64,000 bases of DNA from assembly GCA_037043015.1 (NCBI GenBank), contig CM073325.1, positions 2,916,501 through 2,980,500 on the forward strand, given 5' to 3'. Below the pieces are notes generated by a model. That model had not been told where the DNA came from, did no database searches, and was given only the letters and a program-made list of their open reading frames with translations. The translations under genes were made by a program, and so were the position numbers. This document shows, one piece after another, positions 3,001-57,594 of the stretch. Source of the stretch: Bryum argenteum (Eukaryota; Streptophyta; Bryopsida; Bryales; Bryaceae). Each line of letters begins with the position of its first letter. Within the stretch, counting starts at the first letter, position 1.

Positions 3001-3205
3001 TTCACAGCAGGAGGGTATTGTGTCGTGTAACTGGTACCGGCTGGGATGGAGGAGTGGCCGGAGTGAATGTGGGCGGGGAGAGAGTGTTTGAGTTTTGAGT
3101 GAGGTGGGAATGGGTGCAGGGAGCGGGTAGCAATGAGCAACATGAGATGATGGTGCAGTCATATACTGCAGTCTTTGTGCAGTATCCGGTAGTAGAGCAA
3201 TATCG
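1..3205. repeat. Left arm of a large inverted duplication
   Basis: This stretch is repeated in reverse complement at about 8325-11555. The match starts at the first base of the window, so the duplication continues beyond the left edge. It ends near 3205, just after the 3' flank of the NC2-alpha gene. By eye the part from about 880 to 3150 is nearly identical to its partner. The part 1-880, holding exon 1 and most of intron 1, still aligns but with many substitutions and indels. The arms are separated by about 5.1 kb. Confidence 0.93.
251..2840 (+). CDS. NC2-alpha / DRAP1-type histone-fold transcription cofactor (copy 1, intact)
   Basis: Six exons join in frame: 251-283, 1026-1098, 1504-1597, 1779-1892, 2021-2078 and 2277-2840, giving 311 residues. 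All introns are GT-AG. The N-terminus (MKKKLDTRFPAARIKKIMQA) and the following residues to about 85 form the histone-fold domain of NC2-alpha (DRAP1, NF-YC-like). In this family it pairs with NC2-beta (Dr1), binds TBP on promoters and represses or tunes RNA polymerase II initiation in the nucleus. An acidic SDGDDSEEEE stretch and a basic patch follow. Exon 6 opens with a Gly-Arg repeat (about residues 131-147), then carries an FDLN motif at 225-228, typical of plant NC2-alpha and similar to EAR repression motifs, and an acidic tail ending DDYDCEDDEG. The start ATG is the conserved family start. A near-identical second copy lies inverted at 8683-11306. Repression through FDLN is inference. Confidence 0.92.
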
Positions 3206-3589
3206 TGTGTGGGCTACTGGGCTGTCGCGACGAGAGTTCCCAAGCTGAGGATACACGAGGAAAGGTGAGGCGTGGGTTCGAAGGGATGTGATGAGCGTGG
3301 CATCAAGGCTCATTCAACTAGAAAGCAGAGAGGAATGTGAGAGGCGGGGTAAAGATTCAAAATATCCCCGCGGTCCAGGAGCTAGGTGCGCAGTCGCTGC
3401 TTTTACGGTAGTTTCATATTATTGTGTAAGTGGTTTGATGGACAATCCCCGATTAGAAGGGGATCGTGAGAATCTAGAAATCGTCTCAGAAACCGCTCAA
3501 ATTCCGGACCGCAACCTCTTTAGAGATTGTCGTCAGGGAGTAATCGATTTCGGAAGGTTAGGAAAATGTGGGAGATGAGACCACTTGGG

Positions 3590-8110: not shown

Positions 8111-8324
8111 AGTAAAAAGATTACGACCTCACAATATACAGGGCCCAGAGACTCAGTATTCGACCCAGAGGACCAACACTGAACGCATTGGCCCAGAGGT
8201 CCAACACTAACTCTATCACATGGTTAAATGGATAATACGTTGATTTTCATACATGACATTCAATTCAAACTACCATGTTAAAGCTATTAGCACTCTTGAG
8301 CAATATAAGCCGACAGACAATGCC

Positions 8325-22910: not shown

Positions 22911-23929
22911 CATATTAAGAGTTGTGGAGACATTGCCTAATCGATGGATTTTACATAAAAACTACCAACTACAGCCTATATACATCATCTACTATCACAG
23001 AACATAACCTAAACTTAAACCACTATCCAATTACTCTACAAATACCTCCAAACACACTACTTACAAGACTCCCAAAAAAACCAACAATAAAACCTAAAAG
23101 AATACTCAATCCTATCATGAAAACCTCGCGAAATTCAAAACAATATTTACGAAGGAAACTCAAGCAAAATCAACCACCTCACCTCACTTCTGTCAAATAC
23201 CCAACTAACAGACACGCAATGGCAAATAACATGCGTAGAATTAGACCAATTAATACAAAAAATCTCGAAGACCTTCGAAGAAACATGCAGCACACCACCC
23301 CTCCCCTCCTTAACACCCCTCACATCAGATTAAGGCGGATTTCTACCAAGAAAACTCCAAAAACAATGGAAAAATGCCTAGCTACCTACCATTTAATATG
23401 TAAAGCGATATATATCACGTAAAATAACCCAAACTGGCAACATCACCCTATAATTGAAGAATTGAGCAGAAATACTTACACCAATATCCCACCACCCCCC
23501 CCCCCACAAAATACTAACCCACAAGAATGGATTCAAGCCTTAGCAGAATTAGCTAAAACAACAAAGAAAGAGGCACGAAAATTTACTACAAAATTCACGC
23601 AAACATGCATTGAAAAAGCTATCACAAAATACATACAGTTGTATGAAAAAAGTCCAAAAAAATAAACATAAAAGTGTTTAAACACCAAAAAACTCCGCCA
23701 CTTGACTGTATCACAGATAGATAGAACAACCTTCTAACCAACCCTGAAGACATTGCACAAGAAATACATGCACAACAATCACAAAGTAACAGACCCACAG
23801 TCCCAACATGCTACTATCAACCCGATCATCTTACATCATGTACTTGTGGTGTAAAACAATACCGACGACACAACTTAGATGGCTTTGTAATAGAAAAAAG
23901 AGGCGACCCACAAACTCCCTTATAGAAAT

Positions 23930-25687
23930 ACTTCAACGAAGAAACATACGATCTCTATTTAAAACACCTATCCAATAATAAAGCCCTGGGCCCAGACAGA
24001 ATCCCAAACTTCATCTTAAAAAACATGCATGACAACTTCCATAAACTATTATCCATATTTTTTACCCACTGCTATAAACAACGACAAATACTAGCATCAT
24101 GGAAACTTAGTGTAACTATCATACTACACAAAAGGTGACCCCTCCTTCCTACCAAACCAGCGACCTATAGCGTTGGCAAATACCATTTATAAACTCTTTA
24201 CAAGCACTCTCACACTCATCCTGTCAAACTACGGCGAAAAATATCAAATACTCCATGACAGTCAAGAGGGATTTCGAGCATAAAGAAGTACAACCGAAGA
24301 AATACAACTTATCACCGCAGCCCTAGAAGACGCAAAACTAACAAATCAAGACATCTACATATTATATATAGACTTTAAGAATGCATTTGGATCTCTCGAC
24401 CACGCCCGTCTCCTTGCAGTAATGAAAGACCTTGGCTATCCCGTAGATGTTGTAACACTAATTGGAAACATCTAATCAAACTCCTCTACAACATTTACAA
24501 GAGAGCATTTTGGCAAAACAAAGCCAATTTCAATCCAAAGAGGAATCATCAAAGGTGATACTCTAAGTCCTTACCTATTCATTATATTTCTAGAACCAAT
24601 ACTCAGATGGCTACAAAGAGAAAACAATGGCTACACATTCGGCACATCCAAAACTAACATTACTGCCGCCGCATATGCCGATGATTTAGCAGGACTTGCA
24701 AATACTCTCCAATCTATACAAACTCAAATCTACAAAATTGACAAATTCTGCGAATGGGCAGGCATGGATCTTAGTGCACAAAAATGTGCCGTCACAGGCT
24801 ACCCTAAGAAATCCAAAACAAAACCTGATAAATTCAAAGAAATAATATTACACCATAACATCACATATAGATTTCAACCAATACCTCTCTTGCACCAAAA
24901 CGAACCATACGTATACCTCGGTATTCATATGGTACGTTCATTAAGATGGAAAATTCAAACACATATTGCAACCAACAAATTAATTGACCAATGTAAACAA
25001 CTCACAGAATGTCTTGCCTCAATTAAACAAAAAATTAATATGGTAGATACAGTAATCAGAGCAGGCATCGCTTACAGTTTCTATGCAGTCCCATTCTCAT
25101 TACTAACTATAAAAAAACATGACGAAAAAATCATTGGAATCCAAAAAACACTTTGTGGCCTCCCTAAGTGTACAGCAAACGTGATAACCCAACTTTCCCA
25201 TAAACTATTTGGCCTCGAAGCATTCTCACTAAATACCGCATATCTACGCTGCATTGGTGAACAACTCAGAAACGCACTCAATGATAAGGGCAGACTTGGC
25301 ATCACCTATAGAGGTCTTATCCAACACATCATCTCTAAACACGGTGGTGCAGAAAACATCCCAAGAATAAAACCATCCGATTGTATGCATTCCCCAACCA
25401 CAAGAACATTATTCCTTTTAAAACAAGAAGGCGTCATACATCTCAAGAGCACTGATGCTAACTTCCAATCGCTCAAGACCGAAATCAAACGTGAATGGTT
25501 TGAAGAGGCTACTATTGAACTTCTACACCTCAACTCGGCACTATCAATCAAATTAATACACAAGCTTCTACTCCACAATATTCACAAAATAAAACACATC
25601 TCCCTTCCAAATAGTGCAAACCTTATATCCTCCATAGACTTTGCAGTCTACTACAAAAATCCGACCAAACTAGAAAAAGTGAGCTAG
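23930..25687 (+). pseudogene. LINE reverse transcriptase
   Basis: Recognisable RT blocks in order, spread over interrupted frames: NKALGPDRIPN near 23975, NQRPIALANTIYKLF near 24160, DSQEGFRA followed by an in-frame TAA (24283-24285), YIDFKNAFGSLDHARL near 24370, GDTLSPYLFIIFLEP near 24560, and the catalytic AYADDLA at 24671-24691. From there the frame is open to 25687. In LINEs this enzyme copies element RNA at the nicked target. The stop codons fall at normally conserved positions, so they are decay and not recoding. Confidence 0.88.
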
Positions 25688-27149
25688 AAATAGCTGAAAA
25701 ACTATTTTGTTAATCCAAATGTACCCTTAACTGCACAAATACATGTACTCAACACCCACCAGCCCGTACACTCAAACCAATATATATCTCGGACAACCGC
25801 GACTTACTACCAAGAACTTGAGGCAACTAAACCCAACCTGTCGCCGAATAAATCATCCACCAGCCAAACCCACCACCATTCATAAAAAATAACACACTTA
25901 ACTATCCCATCACCACAATATTAAAACACAAAAAAATACTTCAAAAGACAAATACAAAATACTTAGAACCTACAACTCATATCTATGTGAATGGGTGCAC
26001 AACAACACCACGTACCACAAATGGATCCAACAAAGAGACCTAATCCTCCTAAATCAACCAACAATAATTTCACATAATATCACACTTCTCACCGAATATT
26101 GCACCAAAGTACAACATGCCCATTATGAAAATTTAATCAACACACACTTCTCGCACAGAAAACATAGAGATACCAGATTCATACCCCCACCAACATCTAC
26201 CCCGCTTACGCAAATACATTTAGCAGAATGTAACCCAGAAAGAGGCATTATAGCAAACAAATGCACCATACAAATAAATAATGAAAAACTCACCTCTACA
26301 AAGATAATGGACGATATCTCATCACCATTCCTACCAATAGGTTACAATGGCTAAAACAATTTCATACAAATTTAAACAAACGACACGGCCTCGTCCCACA
26401 CACACAATCCTTCGAAACGGAATTAGTATGGTTATACCAAAGATACAAAGCCCAAACCTCCAAAAAAAACCCAAAACAGACACCACACCACACCCTACCC
26501 ACATGCATTTTTGACCAAATCATTTCTTACTTCAAATCACCCACTCATATCTTTCGTCACCAATAACATGCCCCATGCAAATTTCAAAATACTTCTCACT
26601 TTTTTGCTCGAGATAATTTTTTTGGATCTTGCGGTATTGCCTTTCAATATAAATGGTTAGGCATAGGTTACGCACATCCACACAATGCCGAAACAACTCA
26701 ACAAGCTATCCATTGGCCAAGACTCACAACCAAACATGACCAAAACGCAATTACCATATTAGTTATTCCAGATACGAACTGGTATCAAAACTCAACCCCG
26801 CACAATGGACCTTTCCCTGATACGCACGGAATAACCCAACTTCACACCTTATTCCATCACATATGATATACCAACACCCCCGCAGAAATACAAACCAACT
26901 ACTGAACCACTCGCAATTTCCATCATGTGCATACACCACCAAAACAACCATATTGCCACATCCCAACAAATTAATAACATCAAAAATGCCATTGTGACAA
27001 TGCAAATGCCACACTATTATATACAACAGGCTCCGCCAACTCCATTCAACACCAATGTCAATAAAAACAAATACTAGAATAAAAAACTATATCCTCCACC
27101 ATCACCAACGTTCTCCCCAACGACAAATATACTTCCTCTTCCATCATTT

Positions 27150-27640
27150 GTAACTAACCCTTTACTAAAATTCCAATCGCAACACAGTTACTATACGGAT
27201 GGCTCCTTTATACCCCCTAAAGAAGCTCCAGATGGCCACTGGAAAAAAATAAAGCTGGATACGGCATTTACAATTCCACGAAACTGGACATGCAACTATC
27301 AGAAAGACTTCCTGGCCTTCAAATCTGCTTTCGAGCCGAATTAATGACAATATATACAACACTCCACTTAATTAGCAACAAATATCCAAATGAACCTGCA
27401 TATATCTTTGCAAATTGCATCAACTGTCTTTACAATCTTAATACACATATTCAACACCCCTCCACACACCACAATCATGCCGATAAAACCATATTGGCAG
27501 AAATGGTTGAAATGCTCAAAAAACGCACACAACCCACTACATTTCATAAAGTCAAAGCACATATCAACATCACTGGCAACGAACGGACAGACAAATTTGC
27601 AAAAGCAGGCGCCACTAAAAAATACTCAATAGCTACATAA
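27150..27640 (+). pseudogene. LINE RNase H domain
   Basis: Reads YYTDGSF near 27188, then, after frame changes, CFRAELMTIYTTLHLI near 27325 and FHKVKAHINITGNERTDKFA near 27545. These are the DG(S), E and H..V.AH..I.GNE..D motifs of RNase H. Presence of RNase H after the RT separates this element from plant L1-type LINEs that lack it. The continuous ORF is 27290-27640. Confidence 0.85.
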
Positions 27641-28998
27641 CCCCACGAATTTGCACACACACAACGCCATTCTACTACCAAAAATACGTATGGCCCGGAC
27701 CCTTAACACGCCCGGATAAAGGCCCAATCCGATGTCTCCAAACATACTTACACAACTATGACTACAATAACAACCTTGAAAATACTTGCTACCCAATTCC
27801 CTAACATCAATGAATGGACCACAAACCCGGATATTGACAAAGAATTATCTAACGCATATTGGTCAAATCCTATAATTTCAGACTCTGAAAAAACAACTAT
27901 TTTAAAACTCCGCACAGGCCAGTACATGGGTAATGCAAGAAAACAACTATTTTTTGGAAGGGAACGCTTTCCATCCATTACTTGCTCTATCTGTAACTCC
28001 ACAGATGCCGAAACATGGTTACATACACTGCTTAAATGTAGCCACCATCACATACACGCCATTAGAATAAAAAGACACAACAAAGCTGTATGGGAATCAA
28101 GAAAATGAATTCTCTCCTCACGAAAATTCTGTTGCTACATCTTAATGAACGCAGGCACATTTAATGACAACCCACAAGAAAACACACTCCCTATGTGGCT
28201 ATTACAATGTAATTGTACACAACAACGATGCCACTGCAACGCTAGATTCAAACCAGACATCTTATGCGTAAAAGCCCTCCCACATAATAGCGACCCACCA
28301 TTACACCCCTCGGAAAACCTCATAATCCAATTCCTTGAATTTACCTACTGCAACGACAGATTTCCACAAGAAACAATAAATAACAAAACCGATAAATACC
28401 AACAACTTATCACTAACATTGGCAACTTAGGATGAAAAGTTGACCCATTGATCGTCATTACAGCGGGCGCTCGAGGCACATCACACAAACCATCAATAAA
28501 AACACTTGTAGATAAATTCCAATTATCAGAAACATGCACTAAATGTACATTTCAGGAAATAAATACCATTGCCATTGAACATGCAGGATCAATTATTTTA
28601 CATAAAAGAAAAATAAAAAAGAACCAAGCAATATCAACAATAACCTAACACTAAATTAAAGGGGGGTGGAGTAATAGCGCAAACCACTTCTTGCAAGAAA
28701 ATTAACACTTGTCTCAGGTAGATGGGACGGGGCCGATTGATTGATACAAATTTCCTACCTATGAGTAACTCACCAACAACACCAAGCCATGTAGATGTTG
28801 CGGACGGCAACTCAAAGACAAGACTCGACAGAGAATTGAGGGGAGACCTCAAATGAGGACCAAAAAAGACTAGAAGTGAGGGGATTCCTCACAGAAGACT
28901 CAAGATGATACTGGAAGGAAGACAAGAAGAAGTGATATTGATAAGAGGAGGAATAGATACAACTGGTGTTGATGAGAGTGAAGAACAACGACCTTCAA

Positions 28999-31568: not shown

Positions 31569-34500
31569 ATGGCGCTGCTGGAGACTGTCCCCGCTCGTCG
31601 TCCCGCGGATCTTTCCCCTGTGGTGATCGATCGACTAGCAGCTCAATTCCGGAATGCTGCGGATTTAGACCGTGCCGGCGACCTTCTTCCTGCCGTGCAC
31701 CGGGATTACGCTGAGGCACTCAACAAGCCTCGGGAGCTTCGTACGCAGGTGCTCGATCGAATCGCGCATGGAGCCGCAGACGCGAGCCGGATCGTGGAGT
31801 GGCTCGGGGAGCTCATTGAAAAGGCGGAATCGTCGAAAAGAACTTCCTCGTCGAGCGTGGACGAACTCGCTGCGGTAGTTGATGAGTTGGTTAGAGCTGA
31901 GCTTTGTCGCGGGTACGTTGAGCGCGTTTTGCACCTCGAGATGCAGGTTGGAGACTTGGAAGATGCCGTGGCCGGTATCGCGATGGGATTCGCGGAGCGC
32001 CGGTTCAAGATTGGGGGATCGCGTGGTGATAGTGGAGAGGATTTATTGGAGGCTCTGTCCCGACTCCAATCTGTCGCAGAGACAGTGGAGAGGATTGCAC
32101 CAGGCGCAGGGCAACTTGTGCGGGCTGTTGAAGTGCGGCTCGATCGTGCTGCGTCGACCATTCGTTCGGCCACTGTTGCTGAATTCGGCGAGTTTCTTCA
32201 ATCCATGGGCTGGCCTCCTCCCCTCTCCCTGGGAAACTCTGAGTTTCGGGACTCTCAACGTTCCAATCCGCTTCTAGAAGCATCTGACTCGATTTTGTCA
32301 AGGTGACCTGCTAGACACTCATTGATTTAATCAGTTGCTTCGGTTGCTCCGAATGGCCTTTTACGGGCAAACAGAATTTTAGGTTGTGTGCCGGTGTTGA
32401 GAGATCTTTGCCACTTCACGAAATTGTTGTTGTCTATATGATTCAGAGTTCAAAATATAGTGCCACAACCAAGTTATTCATTTCATCCTCCCGCTGTTGT
32501 TGGCGTGATAAGGATGTTTGATATCGAGGTCTGACTGCTTTGAGTCCGTGATTTTTGAATACTGTACGTTTCTTTTGGTTTTGACCCCCGTGTGTGGCTT
32601 TTGTTGGAATTTTTTCTTGCAGATTCAGAGTTTACTTCCGAGTCTTGTCAACGTTGCAAGCACTGCAACAGAGACGAGCGGTTGAACGTTTACGTAAAGA
32701 ACAGTTTAGTAAAGATCTATCAAAGAGCCGGGATCCTGCAAATTTTTCTCTTGTTTACGAACCTCTTTGGGCAATGGAAGAGCTTGTTAGCCCATTCGCT
32801 TCCCAGGCAATGTATCACTTCAAGAAATGGGTGCAGAAACCCGAACTCGTGTGTGCGCTCGCGCACAGCATGTGTCAAGAGTTTGTGGAGACAGTCGATG
32901 TCCTGCTGCAACCAATCATCAGCGATTCTGGTCTTACGGGCTACAATGCAAAAGAGGAGTGGGTATTATGCTTCTCATTGATGGTGCAGAACTTTTTCAA
33001 ATCTTCTGTGTTTCCTGGTTTAGCTGAAGACGTGGAGGAGAGGTCTGAGGCTTCAAGACCAGCCACTTCTCTCTGGCTGCACACCCTCGATCAGATCTTG
33101 GCTTTTGACACGAAAATGAATTCCCTTCTAGTGCAGGACACTGGTGTTGTCCAGTTCAGATCGGGTGTTGATTCCATTTTACAGTACGGGATCATTGAGA
33201 AGTCGAAGAAAGGACTTGGCGTTCTGCACATATTTGCAGAACGACCTCATTGGCTTGATGTTTGGGCTCATATTGAGTTTACAGACGCATGGGAGAAGCT
33301 GATGGTGGTCTTAGATACCGAAGAGGCTTGGCTTGTAAAAGGAAGTAACCGAACGTTGCTTGAGAAGGGGATTCCTTCTGGAGTAACTGCGGTTCTGGCA
33401 GCTATGTGGTCTGTTATTGATAGGTGTCGCACGCTACCTGAAGTTAAGCTTCGTCTGGCCTTTATCCGGAAGGGTGTCATCCCCATCGCTGAAAAGTATC
33501 ACGATGAGCTCCATTGGAGATGCGATCAGATTGGGGGCTCGGCAGGTCGTTCCACAGATATGGATTTTCATAATTTTGCTACATGTATAAATGCCGCACG
33601 CCATTGTGAAAATAAACTGCAGGTACTATATATAGACCTTAGTGTGCACTAGTAGTTTATTATCAATAGATTCTAAGAGGCCTGATCTGAAGCCTACTTC
33701 TTATCATTGTCGAGAGGAATTGATGTGACCATTTCCACATCATGAGCTGTAGCGGTTTGTTTGTTGCAGTACGGAGTTTGTAGATAGGGTAGCAGACTAG
33801 TTCTTGGAAAGTTGGTTCATTGATTGTAGTAGTAAAGTTTATACGTGTTTTTTGAGGAGGTTAGCATACTCTAATAACTCTTTCTCTGCGACTCACAACT
33901 TGTTTTGATGTGTTTAACAGGAATGGTCCGAGGATTATTTCTTTTTGGAGCTTCGCTTGGAAGACATTTGCCAAAACATTGAGTATGATGTGGATGCTGA
34001 AGACTCAAAAGACGTTGAAGTTTCTGGTCTTGAGGGCACTATCTTTGATGAAGTGATCAGCCTCTATGCTGGGTTCAGAGAAGATCGGATAACCTATCTT
34101 GTATCCGTTTTCACAGGGAAATTTGAGAGGGGTTGCAAAAGTTATGGCGACAGCATGGGAATTTGGCTTGCTAGGGGATCTGATACAGGCGATGGTGAGT
34201 CTCCATCTTTCCCAGTGCCTTCCTGCTATATGCTATCCATAGCTCTATGAAGACGTTGATCCTCTTAAGAATATACAAACAAGATTGTATTGTTGCAATC
34301 GATGACCTGACGATATGATGTATCAGTTCTCAAGACAATGGACTGCTTGTGCTGCAGGGAGATACTCGTCTGGTAACGAGATTGCTTCGGCCGACAAACC
34401 AAGCAGCGTGTCTGGTGCTCTTGTGGAGGCTCTCTTCAGCCTTCAACAGGATTTAAAATCGCTAAGCGAGTCCTTGCAGGAAGAGGACTTCACAGAATTT

Positions 34501-45560: not shown

Positions 45561-45565
45561 CATGG

Positions 45566-45930
45566 TTAACCCTTGAACACCTATAGGGTCTGAAACGGGC
45601 AGCCCGAAATTGGATGACAACATCCTTTGGACTTGGGCATCATGAACAATGCACTTTTTGAGCTTGGGCTTCATGAATGAACCAATCAATGATGAGCTTG
45701 CAACCTCCTACAAGGTTATGTACAACCTCAACCTACCTACCTACCACAATCCTTTCAAAGTACAAAACCAATCATACAAATTGTGATTTGAATTGTAAAA
45801 TTTCACATATCTTGATAAGGTGACCAGCTTGATATCGAAATATAAGTGAAAAGTTGAGAACAATGAGTGCTACAGAGCAGATTCTGTTGGAAAGAAGCCC
45901 CTCTGGATTGCTTGAGCATTTAAGGGTTAA
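45566..45930 (+). mobile_element. piggyBac-like MITE, copy A
   Basis: Starts TTAACCCTTGAACACC and ends GCATTTAAGGGTTAA. The interior matches the best copy (55593-55960) in order: 'gaaacgggcagcccgaaa', 'cttgggcatcatgaa', 'aatgatgagcttgcaacctc', 'cacaatcctttcaaag' and 'attctgttggaa'. It is diverged near the 3' end, where the GGTGACC palindrome is lost. Confidence 0.85.
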
Positions 45931-46455
45931 AGTATTTATGTGGGCGTAGCAAAGCTGCGCGAACATAGTAGTAAGTACGAAGTAAACTTTAGAAATGTAG
46001 AAAATAAAATATATTCTTATTCAAACTCTATAAATTTGTGCGAGGGAATGTTCCATTTGCTGCGTCTTGGAAGCCTTCATCGCAAAAAAAACACCAAAAA
46101 CGGCTCCTCGCAAAAAAACACCAAAATAATGAAATAAAATAGAAGCCAAACGTACAGAACAGAAGTTTTCCTTGGAACCAAATTCCCCAAATTTTGTACC
46201 ATGACCACAAGCCACACGCCACTGATATTAAACTCCAGCAGTGGAACAACAAAACGACAAATCTTGCTTGAATGTGTTGGTTTCTTTTTGAAATGGGATA
46301 TGATAGAATCACCACTTTATGATTTTCATATTACAAATGCTTTATCTTCAATGATATCATGAAGTATTATAGAACCTTTTATTCCCATTTTGGAGCAAGG
46401 TTACCCGAGGACACGAATATTCTTGTATCTTCAAATTTTGGTTGTGTACTTCTGG

Positions 46456-46804
46456 TTAACCCTTAACGCTTAAACGCCCATGGGGTGTGAAACGGGCAGC
46501 CCAAAATTGGATCACAACATCTTTTGGACTTGGGCATCATGAATGCACCAATCAATGATGAGCTTGCAACCTCCTACAAGGTTATGTACAGCCCCAACCT
46601 CGCTACCACAATCCTTTCAAAGCACAAAATCACTCATACAAATTGTGATTTGAATTGTAAAATTTCACTTTTTGAATGCATCAGAAGAAGGTGACCAGTT
46701 TGACATCAAAATAGAAGTGAAAAGTTGAGTACAATGAGAGCTACAAAGAAGATTCTGTTGGAAGGTGACCCCTCGGGTCATCTTGGCCCCTTAACCCTTA
46801 ACCC
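46456..46804 (+). mobile_element. piggyBac-like MITE, copy B
   Basis: Starts TTAACCCTTAACGCTTAAACGCCC, a terminus with a small internal duplication. It runs through the family interior to GGTGACCCCTCGGGTCA near 46780. The right terminus is altered and runs straight into TTAACCCCTAAATGG of the next element, suggesting the two elements meet at a TTAA. Confidence 0.82.
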
Positions 46805-47411
46805 CTAAATGGTTTGACTCATTTGTAGTAAAATGAACACATCCTCAAAAGCATTGTCATAGGTGGAGGTAAAAGTGTGTTATCCAAATCTCAACCGTAC
46901 AATCTTGTCGTAGACATATTGAACATCATGTGGGTCAAATTTTGAGTCATGAGGCTTCATAGATTGCGAGATCATAATGTATTAATACTCAAAAATGATC
47001 ACATAATTTCATCATTTTCACTTTAAAGTGAAAATGCTACCATTAGACTTATTGCAATGAAAAAGTCACCAATTAGAATGTTGTTCACCTTCATCTCAGT
47101 AGCATCCTTGAACAAAAAAAAACCATGAGAAAAATTTCTTTGTGCAAATTATGGCCCTGCAATGGTGAAAACTGCCCTAAATTTTACAAAGGAAAAAATG
47201 TCTAAAACTAGGCTGCTGTCACTGAAATGCATGCCATTAATTCATACTTCATTGTATGGGTCTGAGATTTTCATTACATAAACTAGACTTGATTTGGGAC
47301 CCAACCCAAGTGATTTCGTCCAAAACGGAGTCCGGATGAAGAAGTTATGGCTCTCCAAAGTTGGTGTCATCCAAAATGTCGTTTTTCGACATTCGGCCCG
47401 CTTAAGGGTTA
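46797..47411. mobile_element. Long MITE family (reference copy), TTAACCCCTAAATGG end
   Basis: Sits between copies B and C of the short MITE. The left end is TTAACCCCTAAATGGTTTGA and the right end ...CGGCCCGCTTAAGGGTTAA. About 610 bp, non-coding, with conserved blocks 'ggccctgcaatggtgaaaa', 'aaatgcatgccattaattcat', 'gggacccaacccaagtgat' and 'gaagaagttatggctct'. Relatives with the same block order are at 3885, 7230, 22390 and 30140. TTAA plus CCC ends again suggest piggyBac-type mobilisation. Confidence 0.7.
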
Positions 47412-47771
47412 AACGCCCAAGGTGACCCGAGGGGTCACCTTCCAACAGAATCTTCTTTGTAGCTCTCATTGTACTCAACTTTTCACTTATATTTTGATGT
47501 CAAACTGGTCACCTTCCTGTGATGCATTCAAAAAGTGAAATTTTACAATTCAAATCACAATTTGTATGAGTGATTTTGTGCTTTGAAAGGATTGTGGTGG
47601 CGAGGTTGGGGTTGTACATAACCTTGTAGGAGGTTGCAAGCTCATCATTGATTGGTCCATTCATGATGCCCTTGTTCAAAAAGTGCACTATTCATAATGC
47701 CCAAGTCCAAAAGATGCTGTGATCCAATTCTGGGCTGCCCGTTTCACACCCCATGGGCGTTTAAGGGTTAA
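47403..47771 (-). mobile_element. piggyBac-like MITE, copy C (reverse orientation)
   Basis: Reverse orientation: it opens with AAGGGTTAAACGCCCAAGG and the palindrome GGTGACCCGAGGGGTCACC, and closes with CCATGGGCGTTTAAGGGTTAA. The final TTAA (47768-47771) is also the first TTAA of copy D. Confidence 0.85.
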
Positions 47772-48139
47772 CCCTTTAAGGCGCATGTCAACCTCTCGGG
47801 CTGTTTTCCAAGAGAATCTTGCATGTAGCTCTTTTGATTCTCAATTTTTCACTTTTTTTTTTTTTAATATCATTCTACTCACCTTTTTGTGATGCATCTA
47901 CAAAATGAAATCCTACAATTCAAATTGCAATTTGTATGAGTGATTTGTGCTTTGAAAGGATTGTGGTAGGTAGGTTGGGATCGCACAAAACCTTGTAGGA
48001 GGTTGCAAACTCATCATTGATTGGTTCATTCATGCTGCCCAAGTTCAGAAAGTGCACTATTCATGTTGCCCAAGTCCAATAGATGTTGAGATCCAATTTC
48101 GGGCTGCCCATTGAGGAAGGGAAGGACCTTTAAGGGTTA
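47768..48139 (-). mobile_element. piggyBac-like MITE, copy D (second subfamily)
   Basis: Abuts copy C at a shared TTAA. The terminus reads CCCTTTAAGGCGCATGTCA and lacks the GGTGACC palindrome (CTCTCGGGCTG instead). The interior has subfamily-specific variants ('gatcgcacaaaacc', 'catgttgcccaagtcc') and ends GGACCTTTAAGGGTTAA. Same subfamily as copy G. Confidence 0.83.
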
Positions 48140-48890
48140 AATTTATACGTACTTCTCCGTACTTATAAATATCCATCATTAGAATATTCTAAATACTTGA
48201 GAAGTACGGAAAAGTAGTATGTTATCGAAAGATTCCTGAAACAAATACGGCATATTTTTTGTACTCCCGTTTGAATTTACAATGGATTCTCCACTTAGTG
48301 CCCAATTTCAGCTTCCAAAACTCGTACTTATTTGATGAGTTTCAATGTAGACAATGAATTCATTGTAGATAATGAATGATTGTCTACCTACCGATTGATT
48401 GTATTATCGTAGAAATTAGAGTAGGTACACTTTGTTTGGGAAATGATTTCATCCTTATTGGCTTATATTCCCATGTGCAGCCGGTTAGAGCATGCCGAGC
48501 CTGTATTGGAAGCCGCTGTGGGATGGCGTGGGGGAACCTCACCCCATGCAACAACCCTCTAATTATCCGGGTCAATAGGGTTGGATCTTCTTAAATTCCA
48601 GCCCATCCGATCTTCAAGTTTTCCCGTGCCTTCTCAGTGTTCTCTGTAAGCAATGGAGGTTTGCAAGAGGCCGTAAATTCCATTGGTGGAAAATGTTGAG
48701 GATCACACGGTGCAATCTGATTTTTGATGTGATGTGTGGCGTAGGGGCAGAAGGCGTCCGTTCATGTCATTTGGCGGCAGACAACGGGTGGTGAGTCTCG
48801 CGCGCTTGCCCGGCCCCAACTAGCCAACAGAACTGCAAATCATGTTCTCCGAGCGAGACGTGACGAGGCGAGATGGGCATGCTCTTATAC
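48140..48890. other. Intergenic segment between MITE copies
   Basis: No supported gene. An inverted pair ACTTCTCCGTACTT / AAGTACGGAAAAGT lies at about 48151-48218 around a GAATATTC palindrome and could form a hairpin. A short Cys-containing ORF at 48376-48594 has no recognisable family. Confidence 0.35.
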
Positions 48891-48891
48891 C

Positions 48892-49266
48892 TTAACCTAA
48901 AACGCCCAAGCAAGCCCGAGGGGCTTGATTCCAACAGAATATTTCCTGTAGCTCTCACTGTACTCAACATTTCACTTATATTTTGATGTCAAACTGGTCA
49001 CTATCTTATGATGCATTCAAAAGTGAAATTTTACAATTCAAATCACAATTTGTATGAGTGATTTTGTGCTTTGAAAGGATTGTGGTAGGTAGCTTGGGGT
49101 TGTACATAACCTTGTAGGAGGTTGCAAGCTCATCACTGATTGGTCCGTGCATGCTGCCCAAGTTCAAAAAGTGCACTATTCATGATGCCCTAGTCCAAAA
49201 GATGCTGTGATCCAATTTTGGGCTGCCCGTTTCAGACCCCATGGGCGTTTAAGGGTTAAGGGTTAA
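48892..49266 (-). mobile_element. piggyBac-like MITE, copy E
   Basis: Starts TTAACCTAAAACGCCCAAG with CAAGCCCGAGGGGCTTG in place of the GGTGACC palindrome (compensatory change: it still pairs). It has the family interior and ends CCATGGGCGTTTAAGGGTTAA with an extra GGGTTAA. Confidence 0.83.
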
Positions 49267-50465
49267 ACTTATTCCGGCTATTGCCTCACGCAATTGCTTC
49301 ACTTTGTCTTGAGAATAGAAATTGTAACTTTTTCATGGGTTTTTTTCAGCCGGGTGTTTCAAGAATCAACAGGCTAATAGGCTATTTCCATTGGCTTATA
49401 ATGAACCGATTTGGCAGGATATCCCCCACTCTGGGACTTACCAGGCGTGGGGTCTTGGATGAATCTTGTCCGGGGCCGCAAGGGTGAGGGGTAAAAGCCC
49501 CCTATTTTTTTGTTGTTGATTGGAAAAATGAGACTCCTTGAACTAATGTGGGGTCTCTGATTCCAAATATAAACTCAGAAAAAATAAAATAGGGCCGCAG
49601 GCTCTTTTTTTAAAAAGTAGGGAAAGAAGGCTCGAGGCATGGTAAGGTCCCAGCTTGGGGGATGTCCTGTCCACGCCATAATGAACGACCCAGATGTTTT
49701 CCCCGATGAATTCTTGCTTGTGAGAACTGTAGGTGCTCAGCTAAAGGTATGTGCAGTGAGGGCTAAAGAGCTTGATTGATACTTTTAGGTGGAATATGGT
49801 CAATAGGAACTTAAATTTGGTGGTGACAAATTTATTTGTAAAACAAGAAGCTCCTGAGATTCTGCAATTACTTGGTCCGTCCGTATTTAGACCCTTGAAA
49901 TACCATTTTTTAATGTGAGTTTAGAATAAGGAAAATCTCATTTTATAAAATATGGTTTGCATTTGTTGCGTGCAAGGACAGCGTCGTGGGTTACCCCGAG
50001 GGGACACAGGGTTTACAACAGGGTTTTTCCTGTACCGTATTCCAATAGCATGATCGTGAGGGAGAGTGCTCAAGAATGGCTCAAATATCAGCTCTCCTAA
50101 TTTAGAGTAAGTTTTGTGCATGGGGGAATGTAAGTGGAAGAAGATCTAGTCAAAGTGAATTATAGTTGAACTCTTCTGCAATTTGCTGTGAATATTTTGA
50201 AGGTGTTTCTAAAAGGGTGCCCTCATTTGACACCCCATAACGTTTGGCAGGAGTACATGGCACCGTTGAATAGTGAAGCTGTCGTGTACATTATTGGCAT
50301 TGCTCCATTTTTAAGCACTCTCCCTTGATTGCCTCCGACAAAAACATATGGTCATTGTTTGAATAACACTAGTCTACATTTTGGTTGGTTTTACCCTTTT
50401 GGTTGGTTTTACCCTTAAGCTTTATCTACATCTTGTCATAGCGTGCGATGTTGCTCAAGCATGTA
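49267..50465. other. AT-rich intergenic DNA
   Basis: No gene supported. A degraded relative of the 13465/50470 repeat lies around 49285-49410. A G-rich patch at 49470-49500 and T-runs follow. Confidence 0.35.
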
Positions 50466-50700: not shown

Positions 50701-51825
50701 CACTCTCCAATCATCTCAAGCATCTCTTATGGCCACGCCAGTTGCCTAAAGTTACGGGTGGTGGCATGAGTGTTAAACAAAGCAAGATTCCTTGTTGGTC
50801 ACCGAACTCCTTGCAAGGACAGGGCTCGTTGCAAAGCCCTTACGTTCTCACTAAGAAGGGGGTGCTTTTGCAAGAGGAATTTCTATTCCTTGTAGTAGCA
50901 AGATGACAAGCCAAGGAGGATAGATATGCCAAATGTAGAGGTAGGAAAGTGCAAGAAGGGGAGGAACAAGGAAGTTGTAGGGTTCTTACATCACTGTTCA
51001 GCATGAGAGCAACTAATCAATGTTGAGGAAGATTTCCACCTTCCTAGTCTCTACACATCGAGTGACGCTAAAAGAGCCTCGCTACCTACGGTTTAGAGCA
51101 CGCAGCAGCCAAGAAGCTTATGTGATAATGTAGACAATATAAATAAAGGTAGGATGCTATAAAACTACAATAAAGCAAAAATGGCACATCAACGTCATTC
51201 AAGCAAGAGGTACATTGTATCTTTCAGTTATAGCCCCAACATCTTGTCTAATAAGCCAAATGATTATGACACAAATCATATATTGACTAAAAAGACTCTG
51301 ACTTATTGATAAGGTCAAGGAGTGAAAGATTTTAAGCAAATGACTAAATTGGAAATTATGGAATTATATTTTTCCATCAAAAACAAACAAGACAATTTGT
51401 TATGGACTTGAATCCATGTACAAAACAAGATTATTTGGTGAAAGTGGGGATGTTTAGTACTTAAATGGTATCCTAATGTTGCATTGTTGAAAGCATTCAT
51501 TAGTTGTCATGAAGAGAGTAAAGATTGTGTTTTCATAAGTGTTGGCTTCATATGGCCTTTGATGGTGGAGGACCAGCGTTATCTTTCATATAACTAAGAA
51601 TACACCTCATTAATTATTTGACTTTTTGTGGTAATAATGATTGCAATGTTGCATATTGAATAATTGTGATGCTATTGGAATTTACTCATTTCTCATACAA
51701 TTATGAAGCACAAATATTGTTTGCATGACAATATTCTACATGGTAATCACTAAAGACTATCATACTTTACGTCATTGCGATTATGACAAAACCATCATAG
51801 AGACCATCAATTGGGTTGGCTATTT
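50701..51825. other. AT-rich intergenic DNA
   Basis: Nothing recognisable. AT content rises steadily from about 51100 into the FkbM pseudogene and gene region. Confidence 0.4.
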
Positions 51826-52210
51826 TTATTCAGGATGTTTTAAAACACCAACATAATCACAATTTGATATATTTGTATGAAACTCAAATGATTATCTTAG
51901 TGAAATGTTAAAGGTGTAAGTTGGAATACATTTACATCAATATTACTATCAAATTATTATCACTATCATCATTATAAAAATGTTATTAAAACCAAAAATG
52001 ATATTCTTTAATATTGGTGTTAAAATTTGATCGTTCTTTATTCTTTATATCACATATAGTATTTGATTTTTTTAAAACTTAGAGCTTTAATTGGAATTTA
52101 ACGTCATCAAGTAGAGCAATGTGTTTAAATCTTGATACAATTGGCATGAAAATTCACATTGTTTACCATAGGTTTTTGATCTTCATTTATGAATGAGTAT
52201 TCAAAAATTG
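51826..52210 (+). pseudogene. Decayed copy of the FkbM methyltransferase gene
   Basis: Aligns at DNA level, in order and orientation, with the intact gene at about 52900-53225. Shared phrases are 'tttgatat(a/g)tttgtat' then 'tcaaatgatt', 'tatcaaattattatca', 'atgatattc(t/c)ttgatattggtgtta' (AA for TG at one site), 'atgtgtttaaatc(t/c)tgatacaattgg' and 'ttcacattgttta'. Many indels and stops break it; the region before and after fades out. It lies about 400 bp upstream of the intact gene, so it looks like the old half of a tandem duplication. Confidence 0.82.
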
Positions 52211-52619
52211 GACCAAACGAAAGAGTTTAATTTTAGATCAACACTGTTCAAAATGAGAAGAATATTATTGATTTGTGAAGATTCTTTCAGTATGTCAATC
52301 AAGAACCACATCCTTAGCTCAAAAGTCTTTATAAATTAATAAGAGATATAAGCACATGACGTGTGCTCAACGATTTGGAATAGGTATTGGCCTACGACTT
52401 ACTACGAGGCAAGCGTTAAGAAACAAGGAGTGACGGAAAATTAAAGACGTGGATTTGAAACAAGATCGTGAATTCAATATTTGAAGAACACCAAAATTTT
52501 CTCCTCAGACAATATCCCAACCCCAAGTTGACTTGTTGAATTGTGGCCATTGACCATTGTGTTCTTGTTGTCAATTGAATTTACCTTTTTGCGAGTGAAG
52601 ATTGATTTAAATCTACAAC

Positions 52620-53690
52620 ATGATGAAACCAACTTCACGTCCACACAAGGCTTTCAATTTACTATTGATTTTTTTTAGATACTTGTTCATTTCTTGGTTC
52701 ATAATGAGTATATTTCTGATTTCATATTATCATCACAATACTATTCAATCATCTACTTCTATTGATTGTCAATCTTCCGAGAAATCATTAAAAAAATTTT
52801 ATGAATATCAACGTCAATCAATATCACAATTGCATGATTTTTGTCAAATATTGAACAGTAAAACATTTCAATGGAAGGATGTTAGTAAGGCAACATCATC
52901 AGCAGGTTTTGATATGTTTGTATACAAATCAAATGATTTTGTTAGCGATACTATTAGAAGTGGTGGAAGTTGGGAGTATGTTTATATCCGTGATATCATC
53001 AAATTATTATCATTGTTATCACTAAAAAGAAATGTATCAAAATCGGACATGATATTCCTTGATATTGGTGTTAATATTGGATCATTTTCGTTACTTATGA
53101 CATATTTTGGATTTGAAACAATCGGATTTGAAGCTTTAACCGAAAACTCAATGTTAACAAGAGGATCTATGTGTTTAAATCCTGATACAATTGGTAAACA
53201 TTTCACATTGTTTAATGTTGGTTTGGGTGAGAAACCATCAAAATGTATTATGTTTTCTGTTGATCATAATTTCGGTAATGGACAAATGAAATGTAATGAT
53301 ACCGGACCCGAAATTGAATCAAATATGTCGGTAATTGGGTCAATCACAACCGTACGACTTGATGATTATATTGATGATCCGAGTATAGTTGAACGTATTG
53401 GTCTTGTTAAGATGGATGTAGAAGGATTTGAGCCATTTGTTGTTAAAGGTGGTGAAAACGTTCTATTAAAATCACAGATCCCTTTCATAATGACGGAGTT
53501 GGTTCCAAAAGTAATTCTTGAACGCAATGGTGATCCACAACAATTCATTCAATCGTTCCTCGATCATGGATATATTGCAAAAAAGGATTCTTTCTTCACA
53601 TCACAGATATATAATAATGTTACCGAAATTATGAAATTTGAAGAGATATTCTTTATTCACGAGACAATGTTATCACTTACCCAGAATTGA
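52620..53690 (+). CDS. FkbM-family SAM-dependent methyltransferase, single-pass membrane anchor
   Basis: One uninterrupted exon of 356 residues. Residues about 14-38 (LLIFFRYLFISWFIMSIFLI) form a membrane segment close to the N-terminus, fitting a type II endomembrane protein. The Rossmann glycine motif IFLDIGVNIGSFSLL is at about 147, FETIGFEA marks strand 2, and the family C-terminal signature KMDVEGFEPFVVKGGE is at about 261. FkbM proteins transfer methyl groups from SAM to hydroxyls of sugars or other small molecules; the substrate here is unknown. It is oddly isolated: codons are strongly A/T-ended (GAT, AAT, ATA, TTA), unlike the GC-richer plant genes nearby; there are no introns; and a decayed duplicate lies just upstream. 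Two adjacent ATGs (52620, 52623) make the start ambiguous by one residue. Horizontal transfer from an AT-rich organism, or TE cargo, is possible. Confidence 0.88.
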   Translation: MMKPTSRPHKAFNLLLIFFRYLFISWFIMSIFLISYYHHNTIQSSTSIDCQSSEKSLKKFYEYQRQSISQLHDFCQILNSKTFQWKDVSKATSSAGFDMFVYKSNDFVSDTIRSGGSWEYVYIRDIIKLLSLLSLKRNVSKSDMIFLDIGVNIGSFSLLMTYFGFETIGFEALTENSMLTRGSMCLNPDTIGKHFTLFNVGLGEKPSKCIMFSVDHNFGNGQMKCNDTGPEIESNMSVIGSITTVRLDDYIDDPSIVERIGLVKMDVEGFEPFVVKGGENVLLKSQIPFIMTELVPKVILERNGDPQQFIQSFLDHGYIAKKDSFFTSQIYNNVTEIMKFEEIFFIHETMLSLTQN

Positions 53691-54842
53691 TTTGTCTTGA
53701 ATTAATATCTATATATTGCAAATGGGAATGCCTACTACAACATTATACATGTTTGATATGTGAATGATCCCATACTTAGTTACTTACCACATCAGATCAC
53801 CTCAATTGGCAAATCACCACTTGTAATGGAATCTTTTTTATATCAACCCTCATCACTAGCAGTTTAATGTTGTGATCAGTTGTTCTATATTGAAAACGAT
53901 CATTGAGTTGAAGAACTCAACATCATTTTTACTATTGTCTTAGAAATCTTGAAGAAGTTGTTGTTGCTATTGAGTTGGTCGCTCGTAAGGAAAGGCGCTG
54001 AAGATCAAAGAGTCTAACATGCATAATATGTGAATATTAAGTGTTGGTGAGTAAGGCAAGAGCACTATGTATAAATTTCTACGAATGTGGTAAAGCCAAT
54101 TTTGGAGTATGTACATTTAACCCCTAAAGATCCAAGAAAGCTGAAATAACTCTGGAAGGTTCAATTTCAACCAAATTTGACCATTATAATCCCACAAACA
54201 AGAAAGAATCAATTGACATGTGTGTAAAAATTGGAGTTAACTTTCAGATCCTATGGTTGAACTTCTACATTATGCTTAGATTGAGTTTCATTGATCCCAT
54301 CTTAGGCATCAATTCTGCATCAAAGATTTTTAAGAGGTGAAGAACAAACAGTGTATACTTGGATAACCACACACACAAAAGTCTCATTCAACAATGATTT
54401 TTTGAACACAGGAACCAATGTACCTTTGTCTAGTGGTCATCGACTCATTGTCAAGATGAACAGACACTCTATTCATGCCAGTCTCAAAAGAGGATCGGAG
54501 GTCATATCTATCTATCTATCTTTCGAAAGGGAAGAAAACCATCACCAGAGAAAGGAATACATTGAGTTACAAGCTAGAGTAGCATATCTCCAGACATAGC
54601 ATGATTCTTCAGAAAAAACACATTCAGCAACAAAATGAGCAAAGAATCAAACAAACAAAAAGTATCAAGAGAATGTACCGAACAAGAGTGTTGCATGTCG
54701 TCACTCCGGAGGTCCGGACCCGCAGTAAGATAGATGGCTGACCGCTGGTTCGTTGCAACGCTCGTTGCAGAGTAAGTTAAAATAGAGCGGGCATCTGGTG
54801 GTACAGTATCGATGTGGTCCTCAATAGCATTGATAGCATTGA
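53691..54842. other. AT-rich intergenic DNA with repeat fragments
   Basis: An isolated TTTAACCCCTAAAG end lies near 54117-54130. A repeat shared with 29590-29745 lies at about 54410-54525, followed by (TATC)n. Otherwise nothing recognised. GC rises after 54690 towards the putative exon at 54843. Confidence 0.4.
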
Positions 54843-55099: not shown

Positions 55100-55592
55100 A
55101 TCATTTGGTTGCTTTGTGAAGGAAAGTTATTTCGCTTAAGGCCCCTTCCCACCTGGCCTTTGATAAGAGCATACATTAAAACTTAAGACCTCCACAATTT
55201 TGGGGAAATTCCTTATTCTTAGGGAAGGCCTCATCAATGAGGCTTGGAAAAGTGTCTTGAAAAGTAGCCTCAATTACATAATGGCTCCTCAAAGGCCCCA
55301 TTAACTAAGACCACTCTTAAGTCTTCAAAACTTGAGAATATTTCTAATTGTGGTGCTTCCTTAACACTTGCCTACTAATGCTCAACTATGTTTTGTCCTC
55401 CCAAATACTAGCTAATATTTTTTTTGTCCTCCAAGTTTTAGAGTGTGCCATGTGGACATCCATGTAGGATTGGTAATTACTAAAGAATGTAGGTGTGGAC
55501 ACACACTCTTTTAAGAAGATAAGACCACCTTCTAACACCACCTCTAAGGCCAAGTGGGAACGTACCTTTATGTATTGTCAATATAAGAGTTG
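55100..55592. other. Intergenic DNA with an inverted pair
   Basis: 'AAGGCCCCTTCCCACCTGGCC' near 55138-55159 is answered in inverted form by 'GGCCAAGTGGGAACGTACCTTT' near 55550-55570. With 'gcttaag'-like inner motifs this suggests the two ends of a decayed MITE of about 430 bp immediately before copy F. No gene. Confidence 0.45.
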
Positions 55593-55960
55593 TTAACCCT
55601 TAAACGCCCATGGGGTGTGAAACGGGCAGCCCGAAAATGGATCACAGCATCTTTTGGACTTGGGCATCATGAATAGTGCACTTTTTGAACAAGGGCATCA
55701 TGAATGCACCAATCAATGATGAGCTTGCAACCTCCTACAAGGTTATGTACCACCCCAACCTCACTACCACAATCCTTTCAAAGCAAAATCACTCATACAA
55801 ATTGTGATTTGAATTGTAATATTTCACTTTTTGAATGCATCACAAGAAGGTGACCAGTTTGACATCAAAATATAAGAGAAAAGTTGAGTACAGTGAGAGC
55901 TACAGAGAAGATTCTGTTGGAAGGTGACCCCTCGGGTCACCTTGGGCGTTTAAGGGTTAA
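55593..55960 (+). mobile_element. piggyBac-like MITE, copy F (best preserved)
   Basis: 368 bp from TTAACCCTTAAACGCCCATGG to CCTTGGGCGTTTAAGGGTTAA. Termini are perfect inverted repeats over CCCTTAAACGCCCA apart from the last base, flanked by TTAA on both sides. Next to the right end is the palindrome AAGGTGACCCCTCGGGTCACCTT. There is no ORF. TTAA duplication plus CCC-initial inverted repeats is the piggyBac signature. The family has seven members in this window, in both orientations. Confidence 0.9.
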
Positions 55961-57215
55961 TTGGTTGCGAAATGTCACACGTCACTGTAGTGTTACAGTA
56001 GTAATAGTTGAAGTATAATACTGAATGTGAGAGAGTATGCACACTTTCTTGCAAGTAGAAAAGTCAACAAGTCTTGTGTAGTGATCACCTAACACATGCA
56101 TGTTGAAGCATTTGCAACCAAGAAACAATCAAATAGGTTATGAAAGTTTCATGAAAGATTTAGTCTATTCTATGCATAGAAGGAAATAGTTATTAAAGTT
56201 TGTGGTAGACTTATCAAACATAGAGAATGAAGAATATTAGTCTAAAATGCTCAAATATCTTCTTGGCTCTTTTTAAGGTAGAGTGCTCCATAATAGAGCA
56301 GTATGAAAAGCAAGTTTCAGGCTTTCCAGACACATAGACTTATACTAGCTTTGCACTTCAATTTTTGATGTACACTTAGTGAACATTCAAGGGTGCCATT
56401 TTAGAGCACCACTCTAGATACGCCTGTAAGGTCCGCTTCAGAAATTCATAACAAAATGTAGAACATTCCAAATGATGTTTTTACTTGGATAAATATCCTC
56501 TCATTCACTTTGCCCATGTAGAAAAGCAACTTACACTATTAACCTTATTATGAATTTTTCACGCTAAAATTTGAGTCTAGATTGAGCACCTAACTCTATT
56601 TTAGACCTCGATGTAGTTTCTACTTCAACTGAAAACACATCAATAGTTTTAATCCCTAAAGCCGAGAGGCCTCAAAATTACGAAAACCCTCAAGAGTGCC
56701 CTCTTTCACTGCAAGGTGCAAATTTTCAACTTTTGATATAATTTTGAGTATGTAACACTAAGATCTGTACCTAACTTGTATGTGCATATGTATGTCAAAC
56801 TTTAGATTCAAATTCCTTACAAATTGTGAGATCATATTGTATAAAGTTAGAAAATAAAGTGTTTTACGCTCCTTGAAAAAGGGTGAGTAGTTTTTGAGGG
56901 CCAAAGAAACCATCTTTGGTAGAAAATATGATATGAGGCTCTTAAGATTATTGTTCCTAAGTGAGTTAAAAAAAACATGTCTATGCAATTTTACATCCTC
57001 ATCCGACCTATACAACCTATAGAAATGCTTAATTATTATTCACACGAAGGTATGTTCAACTACGAAGGCCAATCTTTGACAATAAAAATAAGCATGTGAG
57101 GAATGATTGGAATGAAACTTAGAACACTAAGATCATGTCTTCATACATGTTAAAAAGAAACAAAACCTGAAAAGAAGTAAATTCTCAACTTTTGGTGAAT
57201 TTTTGAAGTTTATGC
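55961..57215. other. AT-rich intergenic DNA with dispersed repeat copy
   Basis: About 56280-56560 is the second copy of the repeat in hexokinase intron 8. The rest (poly-A/T-rich, 56600-57200) shows no gene. Confidence 0.45.
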
Positions 57216-57594
57216 AATTTAAACCTCAAGGCGCGTGTCAGCCCCTCGGGCTGTTTTCCATCATAATCTTGCATGCAGCTTTTTTGATTCTCAATTTTTC
57301 ACTTATTTTTTTATATCATTCTAGTCACTTTTTTGTGATGCATCTACAAAGTGAAATCCTACAATTCAAATCGCAATTTGTATGACAGTATGAGTGATTT
57401 GTGCTTTGAAAGGATTGTGGTAGGTAGGTTGGGATTGCACAAAACCTTGTAGGAGGTTGCAAACTCATCATTGATTGGTTCATTCATGCTGCCCAAGTTC
57501 AAAAAGTGCACTATTCATGTTGCCCAAGTCCAAAAGATGCTGAGATTCAATTTCGGGCTGCCCATTGAGGAGTGGAAGGACCTTCAAGGGTTAA
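57216..57594 (-). mobile_element. piggyBac-like MITE, copy G (second subfamily)
   Basis: Starts TTTAAACCTCAAGGCGCGTG with CAGCCCCTCGGGCTG as the sub-terminal palindrome and ends GGACCTTCAAGGGTTAA. The interior shares the subfamily variants of copy D. A small duplication ('tatgacagtatgagtg') is at 57381-57396. The left TTAA is mutated. Confidence 0.83.

Follow-up and report, generated by a model that had tools for sequence, protein, structure and literature searches.

How did a chromosome of the moss Bryum argenteum come to carry an AT-rich, intronless gene for a methyltransferase of the FkbM family, and what might the encoded protein do? The gene occupies positions 52620-53690 of the 64,000-nucleotide stretch of DNA analyzed here (hereafter, the window), which sits in contig C5 (22.2 Mb), one of the 25 contigs that make up the 258.8-Mb assembly. 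The original prediction, made from the sequence of the window, singled this gene out as a candidate horizontal acquisition. The decayed tandem copy that we identified next to the gene shows that the gene has long resided in this chromosome. We propose, at even confidence, that this nuclear gene has long resided in a land plant and encodes a type II membrane-anchored S-adenosylmethionine (SAM)-dependent O-methyltransferase of the FkbM family that probably resides in the Golgi and acts on sugars.

A methyltransferase of the FkbM family with a predicted anchor

The gene and the features of its product are the following:

52620-53690, plus strand: intact single-exon gene for an FkbM-family methyltransferase with a predicted N-terminal membrane anchor (open reading frame, PF05050, TIGR01444, AlphaFold2)
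52650-52730, plus strand: predicted hydrophobic signal-anchor segment, codons 11-37 (hydropathy, flanking charges, model helix 9-41)
53061-53564, plus strand: FkbM (Methyltransf_21) domain with the DIGVNIG and KMDVEGFE motifs, codons 148-315 (PF05050 match to residues 148-315)
53244-53294, plus strand: cysteine-flanked hairpin C209 ... N217-F-G-N-G-Q-M-K-C225, codons 209-225 (motif scan; model strands 207-214 and 217-225)

The open reading frame (ORF) runs from ATG to TGA and encodes 356 amino acids; the longest open run in 2000 base shuffles of its 1071 bases was 131 codons. The protein matches the Pfam profile PF05050 (E-value of 3.5e-8, 34.2 bits) and the NCBIfam profile TIGR01444 (E-value of 9.6e-16, 58.5 bits) above the respective curated cut-offs of 22.7 and 37.7, and the AlphaFold2 model (mean pLDDT 82.4, pTM 0.76) contains the class I SAM-methyltransferase fold. 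Thus, the gene is indeed an FkbM methyltransferase gene as originally claimed, and an intronless one, as judged by the uninterrupted frame. Both conserved motifs of the family, D-x-G-x-N-x-G and K-M-D-V-E-G-F-E, are present, and D148, G150, G154, D248, K264-E271 and G277 are invariant across 32 aligned sequences, many of which were fetched via KMDVEGFE, so that the invariance of this motif stems in part from the selection of the sequences. The class I fold, the cofactor-region motif and KMDVEGFE are shared with the FkbM family, including the solved member 2py6 from Methylobacillus flagellatus; compared with these relatives, the window protein additionally possesses the predicted membrane anchor and the cysteine-flanked N-x-G-N-G hairpin, in which C209 and C225 might form a disulfide, judging from the modelled strands. 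Similar cysteine-flanked motifs occur in eukaryotic FkbM proteins. A Foldseek search against the PDB returned, among the 50 matches listed, varied methyltransferases and a few entries otherwise titled, with modest TM-scores.

The membrane anchor that the original prediction had assigned to the protein is supported, as a prediction, by the maximum 19-residue hydropathy of 2.18 (at residue 16) and by the model, where the region forms a helix spanning residues 9-41; a single arginine (residue 20) lies within the segment. Three Lys or Arg residues are present among the 10 residues preceding the segment and none among the 17 that follow, which under the positive-inside rule suggests an N-in/C-out, type II topology. 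The predicted succession of a short basic N-terminus, one signal-anchor helix and the catalytic domain is the type II layout of Golgi enzymes.

The decayed upstream copy and the chromosomal context

Immediately upstream of the gene, we detected the remains of a second copy:

51832-52175, plus strand: partial pseudogene in tandem with the gene, corresponding to gene nucleotides 257-605 (52876-53224 of the window) (blastn, alignment, shuffles)
51562-51831, plus strand: possible 5' continuation of the pseudogene, opposite gene nucleotides 1-256 (weak alignment)

The repeat search and blastn delimit the copy to 51832-52165, corresponding to gene nucleotides 257-595 (blastn E-value of 8.4e-38, 71.7% identity with gaps); in the alignment, identity is 74.4% over 340 ungapped columns, and none of 500 shuffles reached its score. 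Every one of the 11 indels disrupts the frame (with a different gap scheme, 15 of 16 do so), which is further interrupted by at least four stops (at gene codons 94, 102, 136 and 154), and the copy lacks all six CpGs found in the corresponding part of the gene. These frameshifts and stops, together with an even spread of mismatches over the codon positions (see below), identify the copy as a non-coding remnant. A G or C in the gene is replaced by A or T in the copy at 44 positions and the opposite occurs at 23, a comparison made without an outgroup and hence without a fixed direction. The extension of the copy up to the gene start codon is weak (6 of 500 shuffles align as well, as do 5 of 200 when a larger stretch is taken); the copy was not detected past gene nucleotide 605 (107 of 500 shuffles as good, or 129 of 200 when the stretch is lengthened), nor was an extra repeat unit found downstream of the gene (38 of 200 shuffles equally good). 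The Jukes-Cantor distance between the gene and the copy, calculated from the alignment, is about 0.31. With the substitution rate of mosses, about 9e-9 per site per year, the split between the gene and the copy would, as a rough estimate, date to 17 to 33 million years ago.

The surroundings of the gene are those of a plant chromosome. The Pfam matches around it belong to ordinary plant genes, namely RINT1/TIP1 (in 32585-33649), hexokinase, NRAMP and EF-Ts, those for hexokinase and NRAMP enclosing the locus. The gene is flanked on either side by host-wide repeats (no strand assigned):

47402-47771: host-wide repeat of about 370 bp, upstream flank (40 copies scored of 2973 candidates, 96-100% identity, own copy included)
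49405-49680: host-wide repeat of about 270 bp (40 scored of 972 candidates)
55135-55575: host-wide repeat of about 440 bp on the downstream side (other copies: 40 scored of 1868 candidates, 98-100% identity in 39 and 76% in one)

Relatives of the 370-bp repeat are also located inside 45565-49259 and 55592-57594. The three families resemble miniature inverted-repeat transposable elements, include some inverted pairs and are scattered over many contigs, nearly all scored copies being 96-100% identical. Searches of the entire genome (259 Mb) with the protein and with the DNA of 51800-53750 returned only the self-match and no second intact copy of the gene; because the known decayed copy was not separately reported in these searches, equally decayed copies elsewhere could be missed. 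The description of the gene as lying alone in AT-rich repeat DNA accordingly stands in part: the host-wide repeats are there on either side, but the segment 51800-53750 itself is single-copy, and the decayed copy adjoining the gene had been overlooked.

These findings bear directly on the possibility that the gene is a recent arrival or an assembly contaminant, to which its alien composition (see below) and the lack of a second intact copy in the genome could point. A recently acquired gene would show no sign of long residence, whereas here a decayed tandem copy, diverged to the ungapped identity given above and lacking all six CpGs of the aligned part of the gene, is found at the same locus. 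The near-identical genome-wide repeats on both flanks make contamination very unlikely, and the gene is contiguous with plant genes within the 22-Mb contig. Together, the decayed copy and the repeats disfavor both contamination and recent transfer, and we consider this explanation to have a nearly negligible probability.

Several other elements were noticed in the course of the analysis. The window contains a large inverted repeat (751-3215 and 8308-10772) built of three contiguous arm pairs (886, 682 and 902 nucleotides; 97-99% identical) about 5.1 kb apart; each arm includes an open frame whose product would be a Gly/Arg-rich acidic protein. A non-LTR retrotransposon (long interspersed nuclear element, LINE) occupies 23000-28100, with the reverse transcriptase domain (PF00078) in 24476-25684 and a strong GC and AT skew. 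Outside the window, a plastid-type rpoA gene is present in the nuclear contig C3 (positions 688-1725 of locus L139; an open frame of 346 codons, GC content 0.48), and this nuclear gene is the sole match to the rpoA C-terminal domain among the contigs searched. Transfer of rpoA from the plastid to the nucleus is a trait of mosses, and the nuclear rpoA accordingly suggests a moss host.

Composition, relatives and the origin of the gene

The GC content of the gene at the three codon positions is 0.373, 0.319 and 0.241. The third-position value (GC3) is below that of every neighboring gene segment measured (0.737 for NRAMP, 0.831 for the hexokinase exon, 0.627 for EF-Ts, 0.438 for the open frame adjoining EF-Ts, and 0.557 and 0.534 for the two open frames flanking the RINT1 domain exon) and below that of the LINE frames (0.34 and 0.36), so the sharp compositional contrast with the neighboring genes that prompted the original prediction is real. 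In a sample of the same genome (20 stretches of 10 kb each, 200 kb in total, taken at round coordinates on contigs C1-C9), all 46 ORFs with a length of 150 amino acids or more have a GC3 above 0.241, the minimum being 0.35. At the level of bulk DNA, 6.9% of 360 sampled 1071-bp genome segments have a GC content of 0.311 or less, so that such AT-richness is not rare; the non-coding stretches around the gene are at 0.33-0.42. The decayed copy has a GC content of 0.231, compared with 0.301 in the matching part of the gene, and its core is equaled in AT-richness by 1.3% of 1160 sampled 334-bp segments. Because the non-coding copy is similar in composition to the gene, AT-richness is weak evidence of a foreign origin.

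The family search identified other FkbM-like genes in the genome, at 6.43 Mb of C2, 15.19 Mb of C5, 9.98 Mb of C8 and 11.13 Mb of C9. The last of these is borderline (22.5 and 21.6 bits against the cut-off of 22.7) and is better matched by DUF7870. The C2 gene belongs to the same domain family as the window gene but its product is only 24% identical, and the GC3 of these other genes is 0.43-0.74, in contrast to 0.241. The C5 gene (locus L015) is divided among two or more open frames, suggesting an intron, and joins the C2 gene in the phylogenetic tree.

In a phmmer search over the fetched ORFs, the best prokaryotic match (E-value of 6.6e-15) surpassed the best other FkbM-like gene of the genome (2.7e-6), in a comparison that is biased in favor of the former because the prokaryotic loci were fetched with peptides of the window protein. 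Of 100 prokaryotic relatives, 80 were kept; identities range from 23 to 47%, with the highest values on short segments; where the match exceeds 150 residues, identity is no higher than 35%. Two scans of viral contigs guided by the protein yielded the same 11 records, with 20-29% identity, and a viral motif scan that produced at least 120 stretches revealed a relative in 26 of the 80 examined (phmmer E-value of 1e-3 or less, best 1.2e-8), at least two of them repeating known records. Among 50,697 phage records, three match, with 25-26% identity, and in PHROGs a single family, phrog_8156 (methyltransferase), was matched, with an E-value of 5.1e-14. In a structural search of BFVD, the FkbM protein of Fadolivirus (A0A7D3UW84; E-value of 1.1e-15, 22% identity) ranks first, and a phage protein ranks second (1.6e-14), so that no specific kinship with giant viruses is apparent; giant-virus and phage proteins are interspersed among the 50 structural matches listed.

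In the tree, which has 44 rows, many of them on long branches, and includes eukaryotic sequences from this genome only, the window gene sits on a long branch and belongs to no well-supported set; a weak grouping (84/90) with proteins of Pedobacter and Terriglobia joins long branches. With this sampling of eukaryotes, the tree cannot serve as a test of transfer. Particular viral and bacterial donors were considered and rejected, given that the available relatives mostly share 20-35% identity across the domain and that no partner is well supported in the tree.

The contest is between two old histories, which we put at about equal odds. Under the first, an AT-rich, intronless gene was captured long ago from a protist, a fungus or a giant virus and then duplicated, with one copy decaying. 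The lowest GC3 among the ORFs compared, the open frame without introns, the unusual AT-richness of the core of the decayed copy even among host non-coding DNA, the better (albeit biased) scores with prokaryotic FkbM proteins than with those of the genome itself, and the top viral structural match in Fadolivirus are all consistent with this scenario. Several facts speak against it: the available relatives are mostly 20-35% identical, with giant-virus and phage proteins intermixed among the matches listed; the gene lacks a well-supported partner in the tree; and local mutation bias can account for the composition given that the non-coding copy is slightly more AT-rich. To the supporting side belongs the finding that the full hairpin motif, C209-x7-N-F-G-N-G-Q-M-K-C225, as well as the CLNP motif of the protein, is found in none of 128 relative ORFs (prokaryotic and phage relatives, in a set that includes repeated records, fragments and ORFs of the host genome); hence the donor, if there was one, was not close to those relatives. 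We regard ancient transfer as a serious possibility, at somewhat less than even probability.

Under the second history, an old FkbM gene of the algal type descended vertically, was kept in some mosses and lost elsewhere, and drifted towards AT-richness at an AT-rich locus. This scenario agrees with the retention of other FkbM-like genes in the genome and with the closeness of the GC3 of the gene to the GC content of the non-coding copy; in addition, the discoverers of N-glycan methylation in mosses view it as an algal inheritance (PMC8773788). Vertical descent is put in question by the absence of a visible close paralogue, the nearest FkbM-like gene in the genome being as distant in sequence and composition as noted above. 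We assign it a probability only slightly short of even.

A possible role in the methylation of moss glycans

Whichever way the gene was acquired, we propose the following course of events for its subsequent history and function. The gene, whole or in part, would have been tandemly duplicated long ago; the upstream copy, which has no detectable 3' part, would have lost its reading frame, and the downstream copy would have been kept intact by selection. If expressed, the enzyme would be held in the Golgi by its signal anchor, with the catalytic domain in the lumen, and would catalyze SAM-dependent O-methylation of sugars on glycoproteins or cell-wall polysaccharides; the predicted topology and the domain fit such a lumenal sugar O-methyltransferase. 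The first candidate substrate would be the terminal mannose of moss N-glycans, which in Physcomitrium patens are mostly GnGnXF without methyl groups.

This candidate comes from published work, in which the relevant sections of PMC8773788 describe O-methylation of the terminal 6-arm mannose of N-glycans in mosses, apparently acting after GlcNAc-transferase I and Golgi mannosidase II. According to the same sections, the moss data were the first to reveal methylated N-glycans in a land plant, the enzymes were not known in 2022, and methylation is strong in some moss species and absent in some of their close relatives without following the moss tree. Such a modification seems to require a Golgi O-methyltransferase, and the window protein has the layout expected, in its predicted topology, of this enzyme. 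Because moss N-glycans are O-methylated by enzymes that were not known at the time of that report, the gene is a testable candidate and may encode the 6-arm mannose O-methyltransferase; a gene with a decayed copy would also fit a trait that comes and goes. In the open-licence PMC literature, we found no apparent report of such an FkbM gene in mosses or of an enzyme methylating moss N-glycans. As for viruses, algal viruses carry FkbM genes with substrates that are not known, as far as the excerpts of PMC12085832 and PMC5769502 go, and the excerpts of a review (PMC9614988) describe viral sugar methyltransferases and do not mention FkbM. Conceivably, a protist or giant virus was the ancient source of an AT-rich FkbM gene that became the Golgi mannose methylator, with duplication and decay explaining the patchy methylation among closely related mosses; we consider this chain of events improbable.

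Several observations weigh against the proposed function and against the maintenance of the gene by selection. Mismatches in the alignment of the gene with the copy are evenly distributed among the first, second and third codon positions (32 of 114, 24 of 112 and 31 of 114, respectively), whereas selection on the gene under equal mutation rates predicts an enrichment at the third. Such an even distribution is unexpected if silent sites of the intact gene change freely: the copy may have mutated faster, which is the simplest reading, or third positions may be constrained as well. A phmmer search of the protein against solved structures yielded no FkbM entry and a single match, with an E-value of 0.24. 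Finally, members of the FkbM family also modify polyketides (in the relevant passages of PMC12085832), so that a sugar substrate is a guess.

Indeed, the protein could be a membrane methyltransferase for another substrate, be it the sugars of cell-wall polysaccharides, a glycolipid or a small metabolite. The family comprises a broad range of O-methyltransferases and, according to the same passages, first became known from polyketide modification, and what is predicted for the window protein is its fold and anchor. Nothing directly contradicts this alternative; the probable lumenal topology favors substrates of the secretory pathway over cytosolic ones. We give it a sizeable share of our confidence, below one half.

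The original observation is confirmed, and the decayed copy enlarges it. The general lesson is that an alien composition by itself is poor proof of recent transfer and that a decayed adjoining copy can date the residence of a gene in its chromosome. For the biology of mosses, a predicted membrane-anchored methyltransferase whose duplication and decay can still be traced offers a concrete candidate, the distribution of which among species may be set against that of glycan methylation.
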